From Rubrobacter sp. (GTDB taxonomy: Bacteria; Actinomycetota; Rubrobacteria; Rubrobacterales; Rubrobacteraceae), in the NCBI GenBank assembly GCA_013695475.1, contig JACDAJ010000088.1:1-34711 (forward strand): a DNA stretch of 34,711 bases. Reading direction: 5' to 3'. Position numbers and translations under genes: made by a program. The notes under the pieces were generated by a model. The model was not told the DNA's origin and did no database searches. It was given only the letters and a program-made list of their open reading frames with translations. Shown here piece by piece: positions 11,867 through 30,717 of the stretch. How positions within the stretch are numbered: the stretch's first letter is position 1; each line of letters starts with the position of its first letter.

Positions 11867-12952
11867 TTATGAAGCCGACGGCGTCGAACGCCTCCGGCGA
11901 ACCGCCTCCGCGAGTTTGCGGAGAACCGGGACGGTCATCTCCCATCCCATGCACGAGTCGGTGATGCTTTGCCCGTATACGAGGTCTTTCGGGTCTTCGA
12001 GTTTTTGGGCGCCGTCCACGAGGAAGCTCTCGAGCATGACACCGAAGATGCCGCTCTCTCCGTCCGCGAGTTGTTCGGCGATGTCGCTCGCCACCTTCGG
12101 CTGGTTTTTGTAGTCTTTGCCGCTGTTCGCGTGGCTCGCGTCTATCATGAGGCGCGGGGGGAGGTTCGCGCCCCGGAGGCCGTCGAGGGTGTTTCGGATG
12201 TTTTCGGCGTCGTAGTTCGGGCCGTTCTTTCCGCCTCGGAGGATGACGTGGCAGTCGGGGTTTCCTTTGGTGGTGACGATCCCGGCGAGTCCTTGCTCGG
12301 TGACGCCGAGGAAACTGTGAGGGTGGATCGAAGCCCCCACGGCGTCGAGGGCGATTTGTACGCCGCCCCCGGTTCCGTTTTTGAAGCCGACGGGCATCGA
12401 GAGGCCGGAGGCGAGTTGACGGTGAACCTGGCTCTCCGTCGTCCTCGCCCCGATGGCCGCCCACGTCAGGGAGTCGGCGACGAACTGGGGGGAGATCGGG
12501 TCGAGGAACTCCGTCCCGGTGGGCATCCCCATCCCGGCGAGGTCGAGGAGGAGCCTCCGCGCCAAATTCAGCCCCTCGTTCACGTCGAAGCTGTCGTCGA
12601 GGCGGGGATCGTTTATGAGACCCTTCCATCCCACCGTCGTGCGGGGCTTCTCGAAATACACCCGCATGACTATGAGGAGGTCGTCGGAGAGTTCGTCTTT
12701 GAGTTCCTTCAAACGTCCGGCGTAGTCGAGGGCGGCTTCGGGGTCATGGACGGAGCACGGGCCGACGACGACCATGAGGCGGGTGTCGGATCCGGTGAGG
12801 ATGTTCGTGACTTCGTCTCGGGCGCGGCAAATATATCCGGCGTCCTCGTCGGGGAGTGGGAGTTGCTCGAGGAGGATGGCCGGGGGGATCATGGGCCGTA
12901 TCCTGTCTATGCGGAGGTCCCGCGTGTCCGTCGCCTTTTTCGATGTTTCCAT
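11867..12952 (-). CDS. aroG: 3-deoxy-7-phosphoheptulonate (DAHP) synthase, class I (AroG/F/H type)
   Basis: 361 residues, the normal size for type I-alpha DAHP synthase. It condenses phosphoenolpyruvate and erythrose 4-phosphate in the first step of aromatic amino acid synthesis. Family landmarks are VVVGPCSVHDPEAAL, VMRVYFEKPRTTVGWKGLINDP, MPTGTEFLDPISPQF, GARTTESQVHRQLASGLSMP, VGFKNGTGG and MIDASHANSGKD, which carry the substrate and metal ligands (Cys in GPCS, the His, Glu and Asp residues). The N-terminal extension is the part that usually binds feedback inhibitors. I chose ATG 12952 with AGGGAGA ending 6 nt before; an in-frame TTG at 12967 is inside the attenuator U-tract. It is preceded by a leader peptide and terminator (separate entries). 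Confidence 0.93.
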   Translation of the reverse strand: METSKKATDTRDLRIDRIRPMIPPAILLEQLPLPDEDAGYICRARDEVTNILTGSDTRLMVVVGPCSVHDPEAALDYAGRLKELKDELSDDLLIVMRVYFEKPRTTVGWKGLINDPRLDDSFDVNEGLNLARRLLLDLAGMGMPTGTEFLDPISPQFVADSLTWAAIGARTTESQVHRQLASGLSMPVGFKNGTGGGVQIALDAVGASIHPHSFLGVTEQGLAGIVTTKGNPDCHVILRGGKNGPNYDAENIRNTLDGLRGANLPPRLMIDASHANSGKDYKNQPKVASDIAEQLADGESGIFGVMLESFLVDGAQKLEDPKDLVYGQSITDSCMGWEMTVPVLRKLAEAVRRRRSTPSAS

Positions 12953-12965
12953 AATTTCTCCCTTC

Positions 12966-12996
12966 AAAAGAAAAAGCAGAGGCTCCCGCCCCTGCT
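12966..12996 (-). terminator. Intrinsic terminator in the aroG leader (attenuator)
   Basis: On the minus strand AGCAGGGGC (12996-12988), loop GGGA, GCCTCTGCT (12983-12975) form a 9-bp stem with one G-T pair, followed directly by TTTTTCTTTT. The structure ends 13 nt before the aroG ATG. No minus-strand structural gene lies upstream, so it can only act inside the aroG leader. Directly 5' of it is TTCGCGGGGC (13006-12997), an exact complement of GCCCCGCGAA (13072-13063) inside the leader ORF just after the aromatic codons. CGCCCC of that segment could also pair with GGGGCG of the terminator 5' arm. Confidence 0.75.
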
Positions 12997-13024
12997 GCCC
13001 CGCGAATGGTTTGTCCGACCGACG

Positions 13025-13111
13025 CTACTTCGTCGCTTGCCACCGAGCGTCCGGCCCGACCCTTCGCGGGGCGAACCGATAATAAAATCGCTCGTGGAAG
13101 TTCGTCTTCAC
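13025..13111 (-). CDS. Leader peptide of aroG with Phe/Tyr control codons
   Basis: A 28-residue ORF begins at GTG and ends in TAG. Its residues 5-13 read F-H-E-R-F-Y-Y-R-F, with codons TTC, TTT TAT TAT and TTC, and Trp occurs at position 24. The promoter -10 box TACGCT ends 6 nt before the GTG, so the transcript would start at the GTG itself (leaderless). The aromatic cluster lies immediately before a segment that can pair with sequence next to an intrinsic terminator upstream of DAHP synthase. This fits ribosome-mediated attenuation by phenylalanine and tyrosine. A longer in-frame ATG start exists at 13168, but it lies upstream of the proposed promoter. Inferred; no homologue search was possible. 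Confidence 0.65.
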   Translation of the reverse strand: MKTNFHERFYYRFAPRRVGPDARWQATK

Positions 13112-13117
13112 GACATA

Positions 13118-13146
13118 AGCGTAGCCGGACGGCAACCGAGCGTCAA
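13118..13146 (-). promoter_or_regulatory. Promoter of the aroG leader (TTGACG-17-TACGCT)
   Basis: Minus-strand -35 TTGACG at 13146-13141, 17-nt spacer, -10 TACGCT at 13123-13118. The predicted transcript start falls on the GTG at 13111. Confidence 0.65.
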
Positions 13147-13226: not shown

Positions 13227-14042
13227 ATGAACCTCGGCGAACTCGACACGTATGGCGAACCGGGAGCCGTCGTGTACCTCGCCGACTGCCTCGACCTCAT
13301 GCGGCTCATGCCGCCCGAGAGCGCCGACGCCGTCTTCGCCGACCCGCCGTATCGTCTCTCCACCGGGGGCGTCACGGTGAGGAGCGGGGAGGTCGTGTCG
13401 GTGGACAAAGGCGTGTGGGATCGCTCGCTCGGGAGCTTCGAGAGGGATCACGAATTCAACGTGCGGTGGATTTCAGCCGCGAGGCGCGTCTTCAAACCCG
13501 GCGGCGCGTTGTGGGTGTCCGGGACGCACCACATTATTTTCAGCCTCGGGTTCGCGCTCCAAACCTCGGGCTTCCGCGTCATAAACTCCATCGCGTGGCA
13601 AAAGCCCGACCCGGTCCCGAACGCGATGCACACCGCCTTCACCCACTCGCACGAGACGATCATATACGCGAGCAAAGGGAAAAATGCGCGCCACACTTTC
13701 AATTACGACCTCATAAACAGCCCGAATTCGTCGTCGCAAATATCCTCCGTGTGGCGCATCCCCACCGTCCCGCGCCGCGAGAAACGCCACGGACGCCATC
13801 CCACCCAAAAACCACTCCGCCTTGTCCGGCGCGCGCTTCTCGCCTCCACGAAAGAAGGCGACCTCATCCTCGATCCGTTCGTCGGCTCCGGAACCACCGC
13901 CGTCGCCGCGAAGGAATTGAACCGCTTCTTCGTCGGGGCCGAAAAGGAGCGGGAATACGCCGAACTCGCCGAGAAGCGCATACGAGCCGCCGAGAGGGGA
14001 AGCATTCTCCGCGACATCGCCGAGGCATACCCGCTCGCATGA
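13227..14042 (+). CDS. Orphan beta-class DNA N6-adenine methyltransferase
   Basis: 271 residues. Motif IV DPPY (39-42) comes before the AdoMet motif I, LDPFVGSGTT (215-224), which is the beta-class order; DPPY points to adenine-N6 methylation. HPTQKPLRL (191-199) is the conserved lead-in to motif I. The stretch after DPPY (LSTGGVT...VSVDKGVWD) resembles the DpnA/MboII-type enzymes that can act on single- or double-stranded DNA. No restriction endonuclease or specificity subunit is next to it, so it seems to be a solitary modification enzyme, perhaps for regulation or phage protection. The recognition site cannot be predicted from the sequence. Start ATG 13227, leaderless. Confidence 0.88.
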   Translation: MNLGELDTYGEPGAVVYLADCLDLMRLMPPESADAVFADPPYRLSTGGVTVRSGEVVSVDKGVWDRSLGSFERDHEFNVRWISAARRVFKPGGALWVSGTHHIIFSLGFALQTSGFRVINSIAWQKPDPVPNAMHTAFTHSHETIIYASKGKNARHTFNYDLINSPNSSSQISSVWRIPTVPRREKRHGRHPTQKPLRLVRRALLASTKEGDLILDPFVGSGTTAVAAKELNRFFVGAEKEREYAELAEKRIRAAERGSILRDIAEAYPLA

Positions 14043-28672: not shown

Positions 28673-30410
28673 GTTCTTCGATCATCTCGGAGACGCTCAT
28701 GCCCGAGGGGATCATGGGATACACGTTCGCCTCGGAGTCAATGTGGAAGTCCACGATGGCGAACCCCTCCGTCTCGTTCGCCCACTTCACCGCCTCCTCG
28801 ATGTCGCCGCCCGGATGGATCGTCTTCCCGGCGAGTCCATACGCAGCCGCGAAGATTTCATAGTCCGGCCCGGTCATCGGGGTCGAGGAATAGCGGCGGT
28901 TGTGGAAGAATTGCTGCCACTGGCGAACCATCCCGAGGTATCCATTATTCAGGATGGCGACCTTTATATTCAGCCCCATGTCCCGGATCGTGGCGAGTTC
29001 TTGAATGTTCATCTGGATGCCGCCATCCCCCGCGACGACCCACACCGGCTCGTCGGGGTACGCGAGCGCGACCCCCATCGCCGCCGGGAGCGCGAAGCCC
29101 ATCGTCCCGAGGCCGCCCGAGGTTATGTGGCTGTTTTTCTTCGTGAATTTGAAGAATTGCGCCGACCACATTTGATGTTGTCCGACATCGGTGACGAGCC
29201 GGACTTCATCGCCCGCGATTTCTTTGATGGCGTCCATTATCCGGATCGGGCCGTATTCGGGACGGGCGGTTTCCTCGTGCATCTTCTCTGATTCCTGGCT
29301 TTTCTTTATCTCCTCCCGCCAGCTCGCGCAGTTGTCCTCGACGGAATCGAGATGTCCGAGGATGCCGCGCATCGCAGCCTTCGCGTCGGCGGTGATGCCG
29401 ACCGTCGGCTTGACGACTTTTCCGAGTTCGGAGGGATCGATGTCAATGTGGATGACCTTCGCGTTCGGGGCGAATTTGCTCGCGTTTCCGGTGATGCGGT
29501 CATCGAAGCGCATCCCGACCGCGAAGAGGAGGTCGCATTTGTCTATGGCGCGGTTCACGCTCGCCTGCCCGTGCATCCCCGGCCATCCGATATACAAAGG
29601 ATGGTCGTTCGAAATGGCGGAGAGTCCGAGAAGCGTCGTCACCACCGGGGTTCCGGTCTTCTCGGCGAGGCGGACGAGTTCGAGTTCCGCGCCCGCCAAA
29701 GTGACGCCGTGTCCGGCGAGTATGATCGGCTTTTTCGCTTTTTTGAGAAGGAGCGCGGCAGCTTCGAGGCCCGGACTGGCGATGGGTGGCACGGCTTCTT
29801 TGAGGCGGCGGTATCCGTTGTCGTTGCAAGCCGCGAATTGGACGTCCTTCGGAACGTCAACGAGGACGGGCCCGGGGCGACCGGAGCGGGCGATCTCGAA
29901 CGCCCGGCGTATCGTCGGATAAAGCTCGTCCGGATCCTCGACGAGGAACGAATGTTTGGTAAATGGCAACGCCATCCCCATGACGTTCGTTTCTTGAAAG
30001 GAGTCCATCCCCATCGCGGGCCGCCCGACTTGCCCGGTTATGGCGACCATCGGAACCGAGTCCATCATCGCGGTGGCGAGTCCGGTTACGAGGTTCGTGG
30101 CTCCGGGGCCGCTCGTCGCGATGCACACTCCGACTTCCCCGGTCGCCCTCGCGTATCCGTCCGCCGCATGCGCCGCCGCTTGTTCGTGGCGGGTGAGGAC
30201 GTGTTTTAGCGGGTAATCCGGCAGGGCGTCGTAGAAAGGCATGATGGCTCCGCCGGGGTATCCGAAGAGGTGTTCGATGCCTTCGTCGAGGAGGGCTTCG
30301 CACATCGCCTCGCTGCCGATGCGGGGTTTGTATTCGATGGCGGGGTGGTTGTCGAAATTGTCGAAGTTGTCGAACGAGTCGAAGTCGGCCTTGTGTGCGG
30401 TGTTCTCCAC
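28665..30410 (-). CDS. ilvB: Acetolactate synthase large subunit
   Basis: 581 residues. ThDP- and FAD-dependent enzyme that makes acetolactate and acetohydroxybutyrate. Landmarks: GIEHLFGYPGGAIMPFYDAL, LTRHEQAAAHAADGYARATG with the catalytic Glu, ATSGPGATNLVTGLATAMMDS, GQVGRPAMGMDSFQE, GTPVVTTLLG and the ThDP motif VAGDGGIQMNIQELATI...AILNNGYLGMVRQWQ. I chose GTG 30410 with GGAAGG ten bases before it; the in-frame TTG at 30434 lies in the attenuator U-rich tract. The N-terminus carries an odd F-D-N repeat encoded by tandem 9-bp units. First gene of ilvBNCE, behind a candidate attenuator. Confidence 0.94.
   Translation of the reverse strand: MENTAHKADFDSFDNFDNFDNHPAIEYKPRIGSEAMCEALLDEGIEHLFGYPGGAIMPFYDALPDYPLKHVLTRHEQAAAHAADGYARATGEVGVCIATSGPGATNLVTGLATAMMDSVPMVAITGQVGRPAMGMDSFQETNVMGMALPFTKHSFLVEDPDELYPTIRRAFEIARSGRPGPVLVDVPKDVQFAACNDNGYRRLKEAVPPIASPGLEAAALLLKKAKKPIILAGHGVTLAGAELELVRLAEKTGTPVVTTLLGLSAISNDHPLYIGWPGMHGQASVNRAIDKCDLLFAVGMRFDDRITGNASKFAPNAKVIHIDIDPSELGKVVKPTVGITADAKAAMRGILGHLDSVEDNCASWREEIKKSQESEKMHEETARPEYGPIRIMDAIKEIAGDEVRLVTDVGQHQMWSAQFFKFTKKNSHITSGGLGTMGFALPAAMGVALAYPDEPVWVVAGDGGIQMNIQELATIRDMGLNIKVAILNNGYLGMVRQWQQFFHNRRYSSTPMTGPDYEIFAAAYGLAGKTIHPGGDIEEAVKWANETEGFAIVDFHIDSEANVYPMIPSGMSVSEMIEEHA
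30348..30383 (-). repeat. Tandem 9-bp repeat coding F-D-N/S units at the IlvB N-terminus
   Basis: On the plus strand GTTGTCGAA, ATTGTCGAA, GTTGTCGAA, CGAGTCGAA follow each other. They encode D-S-F-D-N-F-D-N-F-D-N before the conserved enzyme core. Unit number could vary between strains. Confidence 0.7.
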
Positions 30411-30432
30411 GATGTTCCATCCTTCCAAAGTC

Positions 30433-30481
30433 AAAAGTAAAAAGAAGAGCCTTTGCCGGAGGAACTTTATGTCCCCAGGCT
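30433..30481 (-). terminator. Terminator-like hairpin before ilvB (attenuator candidate)
   Basis: AGCCT (30481-30477) and AGGCT (30452-30448) enclose a partly self-complementary interior (GGGGAC facing GTTCCTCC). They are followed by a U-rich tract, CTTCTTTTTACTTTT, at 30446-30433. It lies directly between the leader ORF stop and ilvB. The stem is weaker than in the aroG case. Confidence 0.5.
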
Positions 30482-30646
30482 TTAGGCGGACCGGATGTCG
30501 CCGTCCCGGCCCGCCCTACTAATTATTAGTAGTCGGGACTGCGGTACGGCGACGCTGGATACTCGTGGGTGAACGTGGGGAGTCAGGAGGCGGGCGGAGA
30601 CGCGCTGTGAGGCTTCGATCTGTCCGTTGTCGGAAACTCCGTTCAA
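30482..30646 (-). CDS. Candidate leader peptide of ilvBNC with Leu-Leu-Ile-Ile codons
   Basis: A 54-codon ORF from TTG 30646 (GAGG upstream) to TAA 30482. Residues 38-44 read R-L-L-I-I-S-R, with codons CTA CTA ATA ATT. These fall inside the palindrome CTACTAATTATTAGTAG (30516-30532), which would fold into a strong RNA hairpin extended by GTCCCG/CGGGAC. Several Val codons precede it. Translation through this hairpin would report leucine and isoleucine supply, and a terminator-like hairpin follows. The true start may be further downstream, as the first 30 residues look unremarkable. Not comparable by search here. Confidence 0.55.
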   Translation of the reverse strand: MNGVSDNGQIEASQRVSARLLTPHVHPRVSSVAVPQSRLLIISRAGRDGDIRSA

Positions 30647-30688
30647 GAGTCTTCGTATCCTCGCATGACTCGCTTACAAGTGGCTTGA

Positions 30689-30717
30689 AGGTTAAACGCC
30701 GATTCTCCGCATGTCAA
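30689..30717 (-). promoter_or_regulatory. Promoter of the ilvB leader (TTGACA-17-TAACCT)
   Basis: Consensus -35 TTGACA at 30717-30712, a 17-nt spacer and TAACCT at 30694-30689. The transcript would start near 30682, giving a leader of about 270 nt before ilvB. The rest of the gap to thrB (30718-30933) shows no gene. Confidence 0.65.

Follow-up and report, generated by a model that had tools for sequence, protein, structure and literature searches.

A predicted tyrosine/phenylalanine attenuator with a leaderless leader peptide precedes the DAHP synthase gene aroG in Rubrobacter

The DNA analysed here, called the window, is a stretch of 34,711 nucleotides from a Rubrobacter genome, and the features at and around its aroG gene are collected in Table 1. 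A first-pass annotation, made from the sequence letters, had described the promoter, the 28-residue open reading frame, a pair of complementary 10-nt segments (strand 1 and strand 2) and the 9-bp terminator, and we recovered all of them base for base. The 6 nt TATGTC separate the end of the -10 box (13118) from the GTG start codon of the leader (13111). Strand 1 begins directly 3' of codon F13, which places it 9 nt from the first base of the Y11 codon, and the end of the U-tract (12966) is followed after 13 nt by the ATG of aroG (12952). The earlier statement that no upstream gene could own the terminator also held, since the upstream neighbour is divergent. A similar arrangement, with a divergent methyltransferase neighbour, was seen upstream of aroG in the loci L002 and L003.

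Table 1. Features of the aroG region, with positions in the window
Feature	Positions	Strand	Details
Promoter TTGACG-17-TACGCT	13118..13146	(-)	boxes 13146-13141 and 13123-13118, 17-nt spacer
Leader peptide ORF	13025..13111	(-)	28 aa, GTG start, VKTNFHERFYYRFAPRRVGPDARWQATK; homologous leaders in relatives
Control codons F9-Y10-Y11-R12-F13	13073..13087	(-)	aromatic run kept in relatives
Strand 1 of switch helix	13063..13072	(-)	GCCCCGCGAA; complement of strand 2
Strand 2 of switch helix	12997..13006	(-)	TTCGCGGGGC; exact 10-nt complement of strand 1, zero gap to terminator
Intrinsic terminator hairpin	12975..12996	(-)	9 bp, AGCAGGGGC-GGGA-GCCTCTGCT
Terminator U-tract	12966..12974	(-)	TTTTCTTTT
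aroG ribosome-binding site	12964-12958	(-)	AAGGGAG
aroG, DAHP synthase of AroFGH type	11867..12952	(-)	361 aa; TIGR00034 5e-156; PF00793
Divergent neighbour, CcrM-like / adenine methyltransferase-like gene	13227-14042	(+)	match below curated cut-off

The aroG product is probably a second, regulated isoenzyme, because the genome also holds a 270-aa PF00793 protein (contig C139) and no type II DAHP synthase was found in it. A protein similar to the 270-aa one occurs in most genomes of the class. In one relative (L005:1285-2592), the DAHP synthase, of the AroFGH type, has a ferredoxin-like domain at its N-terminus (PF18152, E 2.7e-7); this domain is known as the regulatory part of DAHP synthases of the other type (I-beta). 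By eye, L004 and L013-L016 have N-terminal sequence resembling this region.

We compared the elements upstream of aroG with what chance would produce. The folding energy of the leader RNA is -69.8 kcal/mol (z = -4.6), and none of 200 shuffled sequences was as stable. A perfect Watson-Crick helix of at least 10 bp that abuts the terminator arose in only 3 of 4000 shuffles (0.075%). With the intergenic region shuffled, 1.1% of the sequences had a short ORF with at least four aromatic codons out of five. The consensus promoter scan misses TTGACG-17-TACGCT, which has 8 of 12 matches and falls under its cut-off; the promoter boxes are nonetheless conserved in relatives. An Rfam search of the leader gave nothing above the gathering score, so that no Rfam family matches it.

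A search of the entire window for a promoter, a leaderless short ORF and a terminator in combination returned this single site. Another aromatic short ORF, at 29125 (MWLFFF...), is antisense to ilvB and lies within that gene; it has neither promoter nor terminator and was set aside as a chance occurrence. About 290 nt (30428-30716, reverse strand) separate a promoter-like site, TTGACA-17-TAACCT, from ilvB; this stretch has a U-rich end, no Rfam match and a fold marginally better than shuffles, and is possibly an uncharacterised ilvB leader.

The class was sampled with 40 genomes, all from one family, and aroG of the AroFGH type was present in 16 of them. Leader, helix and terminator occur together in 8 of the 16 (G000, G001, G010, G011, G002, G014, G022 and G039). 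Three more (G015, G023 and G035; loci L014, L015 and L016) have a promoter and a terminator-like hairpin with no aromatic leader, and in the remaining five (G005, G017, G009, G020 and G025) all three elements are absent and aroG lies downstream of other genes. The first-pass annotation had regarded relatives with aroG but no leader as evidence against attenuation; such relatives do exist, in the 5 of 16 and, as regards the aromatic leader, in the 3 others, whereas half of the aroG loci keep the arrangement. In the tree of aroG, loci that lack a leader are scattered over separate groups, one of them adjoining the group of the window itself, which suggests that the absences are losses. In L014, L015 (reverse strand) and L016, a TTGACG...TAnnnT promoter and the terminator-like hairpin lie some 250-350 nt before the aroG match, and a short hairpin, CGGGG-CCCCG, takes the place of the aromatic leader.

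Where the leader is present, its peptide diverges and the aromatic run persists (VKINFHERFYYRF..., VSKSFYERFYYRS..., MRAGGYISVRYPYRS..., MNVRFYYFIRR... and MEQGAIFGRTYGGRYYYRC...), the kept runs being FYY, YYY, YPY or FYYF. Relatives do not conserve the Trp codon (W24), and tryptophan is therefore not a likely signal as judged from these leaders. The promoters of L002, L003, L004 and L013, and by eye that of L005, read TTGACN or TTTACG, a 17-nt spacer and TAnnnT, and the start codon follows after 6-8 nt. Because TAnnnT stands 6-8 nt before every start codon tested (for L005 the distance was read by eye), leaderless translation looks conserved.

The pairing of strand 1 with strand 2 is also maintained. 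All ten pairs are formed in each of five leaders (50 of 50 cells; L001, which is the window itself, L003, L004, L005 and L013), three pairs have changes on both sides, and the covariation score was equalled by 2 of 500 shuffles. The set is small, at five sequences, but the control with slid registers was clean, none of them coming near the true register. Pairs were counted on extracted strands; a MAFFT alignment of the full leaders misplaced strand 2 of L004 and L005. The strands were picked by hand for complementarity, hence the paired percentage alone is weak evidence, and the exact position of the strands relative to the terminator in each leader is stronger evidence. Strand 1 encodes an ALRRGGP-like peptide end, which is conserved for that reason. 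Conserved aromatic codons and compensatory changes in the helix are what the first-pass annotation had expected a comparison of upstream regions to reveal if the attenuator was genuine.

An automatic search with a pattern of aromatic codons, strand 1, strand 2 and terminator found the arrangement before aroG-type genes elsewhere in the phylum, in Mycobacterium colombiense (RAYWRFIVAPGG), Dietzia (RAYWRFMWAPGG), Catellatospora (MYWRFTLALGG) and several further genomes; manual reading revealed the matching layout in Streptomyces sp. 150FB (NRWYWRYEPAPGG). The genome G323, which belongs to the phylum of the window, Actinomycetota, shares its leader and terminator with M. colombiense (L125 and L089). 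Across the actinobacterial aroG-type leaders, strand 2 ends 0-3 nt from the terminator, and the chance of an abutting helix was mostly at or below 0.02 per sequence, with weaker values for L005 and L113. Counted from the first base of the final aromatic codon, the distance to strand 1 is 8-9 nt in 11 leaders out of 16, and 2, 3, 3, 5 and 13 nt in the other five. Given the size of the ribosome footprint, a ribosome with its A-site codon 8-9 nt upstream would cover the first part of strand 1. The comparison of leader sequences thus shows strand 1 at a place that would be masked if a ribosome halted at the final aromatic codons.

Amycolatopsis marina (L091) and the locus L019 have a related yet different layout, and the pairing partner in L019 overlaps the terminator. 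Outside the phylum, aromatic short ORFs followed by terminators were seen before aroG in Xanthomonas (L037 and L056), Burkholderia (L074 and L083) and Burkholderiales (L093), with runs that include SFYFWYYGF and KFYFYFFWY. These proteobacterial short ORFs are probably part of independent aromatic attenuators.

Taken together, the aromatic run, the compensated helix, the abutting terminator and the start spacing, all conserved in relatives, strengthen the earlier proposal that Tyr and Phe codons of the leader control aroG, and we consider it very probable that the gene is under ribosome-mediated transcription attenuation by the supply of tyrosine and phenylalanine. We infer that the transcript is leaderless at the leader and that the amino acids sensed are Tyr and Phe. 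Transcription would begin at the GTG or just upstream of it, and a ribosome would load onto the bare 5' end. If charged tRNA-Tyr and tRNA-Phe were plentiful, the ribosome would clear the FYYRF codons, strand 1 would pair with strand 2, and the adjoining terminator would end transcription. If either amino acid was scarce, the ribosome would stall on the aromatic codons and its front edge would mask strand 1, leaving strand 2 unpaired, so that more polymerases would continue into aroG. Loss of the helix would, on this model, lower termination.

A refinement of the attenuation model, rather than an alternative to it, is that each leader is tuned to a single amino acid, set by which codon sits about 8-9 nt before strand 1: Tyr in the family of the window and Phe in mycobacteria and Corynebacterium. 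The codon at 8-9 nt is Tyr in L001, L003, L004 and L013 and Phe in the YWRF leaders, and aroF expression in C. glutamicum is reported to go up under Phe limitation and to be unresponsive to Tyr (PMC11802643). However, L001 and L002 carry an extra Phe codon directly before strand 1, and in L005 a Phe codon stands at 13 nt. We hold this tuning to be plausible but somewhat short of an even chance. Tyr may be the main signal in the family of the window, because the codon at the commonest distance there is a Tyr codon.

The exact antiterminator pairing had been left unsettled by the first-pass annotation, and RNA folding found none either. In the model, a ribosome was set in turn at every aromatic codon and at the stop codon, and the RNA left free was folded. 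The terminator was preferred in every state; the margin was 5-12 kcal/mol for the window and for L002, from its sister genome, and 3-19 kcal/mol for other leaders. With a ribosome on F13 before the 3' arm of the terminator is made, the 5' arm became somewhat less open (from 1.0 to 3.7 kcal/mol in the window and from 3.6 to 6.2 kcal/mol in L002), an effect that did not appear in L003 and L013. Neither constrained folding nor a comparison of local folds with shuffles, over 16 leaders, gave an antiterminator exclusive with the terminator.

Three candidate pairings were examined and rejected. Strand 2 with the end of the terminator 5' arm and the loop was plausible in L002, and the local folds were no better than shuffles over the 16 leaders. 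A 2:4 pairing of strand 2 with the terminator 3' arm, considered because strand 2 resembles the 5' arm, did not reach the strength of the terminator and did not hold generally across the wider set. Strand 2 extended into the U-tract appeared in some folds and was not common to the leaders.

Either the antiterminator is kinetic and short, or the helix acts through its position beside the terminator. In a specific form of the latter, there would be no overlapping antiterminator at all, and the ribosome-controlled abutting helix would set the efficiency of the terminator by stacking or timing and not by competition; we regard this form as rather unlikely.

The preference for the terminator at all modelled ribosome positions would also be consistent with a plain constitutive terminator that stands after the promoter and does no more than damp aroG, the leader ORF being incidental and sensing nothing. 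L014, L015 and L016 indeed lack an aromatic leader but have a promoter and a terminator-like hairpin. This explanation is highly improbable, as the aromatic run, the start position and the pairing of strand 1 with strand 2 are kept across diverged leaders. That the leader instead controls translation of aroG, for example through access to its ribosome-binding site a few bases beyond the U-tract, is scarcely credible in view of the classic U-tract on the hairpin, the conserved helix that stops short of that site, and the greater distance of the terminator from the start codon in L004-L007 and L013.

Attenuation of aroG as proposed here resembles that of pheA/pheL and trpL of E. coli, in which control codons, alternative RNA pairing and a terminator precede a biosynthetic gene. 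The control codons and the terminator are shared with the window, whereas the E. coli leaders differ in two respects: they carry a ribosome-binding site, and their 2:3 antiterminator overlaps the terminator. The aroR transcript of C. glutamicum is reportedly leaderless.

In the same phylum as the window, the C. glutamicum aroR leader has consecutive Phe/Tyr codons, Phe-Tyr-Phe, before the DAHP synthase gene aroF (Neshat et al. 2014, as cited in PMC11802643; the leader is also listed in PMC4046766). It differs from the window in lineage, in its codons (FYF versus FYYRF) and in the codon at the usual distance, which is Tyr and not Phe in the window. In actinobacteria, the leader peptides of other amino acid genes frequently start without an untranslated leader (PMC8079986); those of trp, ilvB and leu have short, mostly leaderless control peptides, several with a terminator (PMC1262725, PMC8079986), and serve amino acids other than those of the aroG leader. 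In the actinobacterial trp leaders, antiterminator and terminator have bases in common, whereas no such antiterminator was found for the aroG leader of the window. A comparative survey of 2005 described other amino acid pathway genes as being without conserved upstream structures (PMC1262725), and this was the only paper returned by a literature search on leader-peptide attenuation in Rubrobacter; no description of an aromatic leader attenuator in that lineage was found.

There is a good comparative case, drawn from sequence, that the attenuator is real, ordinary in kind and new for the Rubrobacter lineage. It poses the puzzle of how loss of a helix beside the terminator would allow polymerase to pass. 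In several families of the phylum, a predicted leaderless aromatic leader and a terminator-abutting helix precede the gene for DAHP synthase, and a control device studied in Corynebacterium would thereby extend to a deep actinobacterial lineage.
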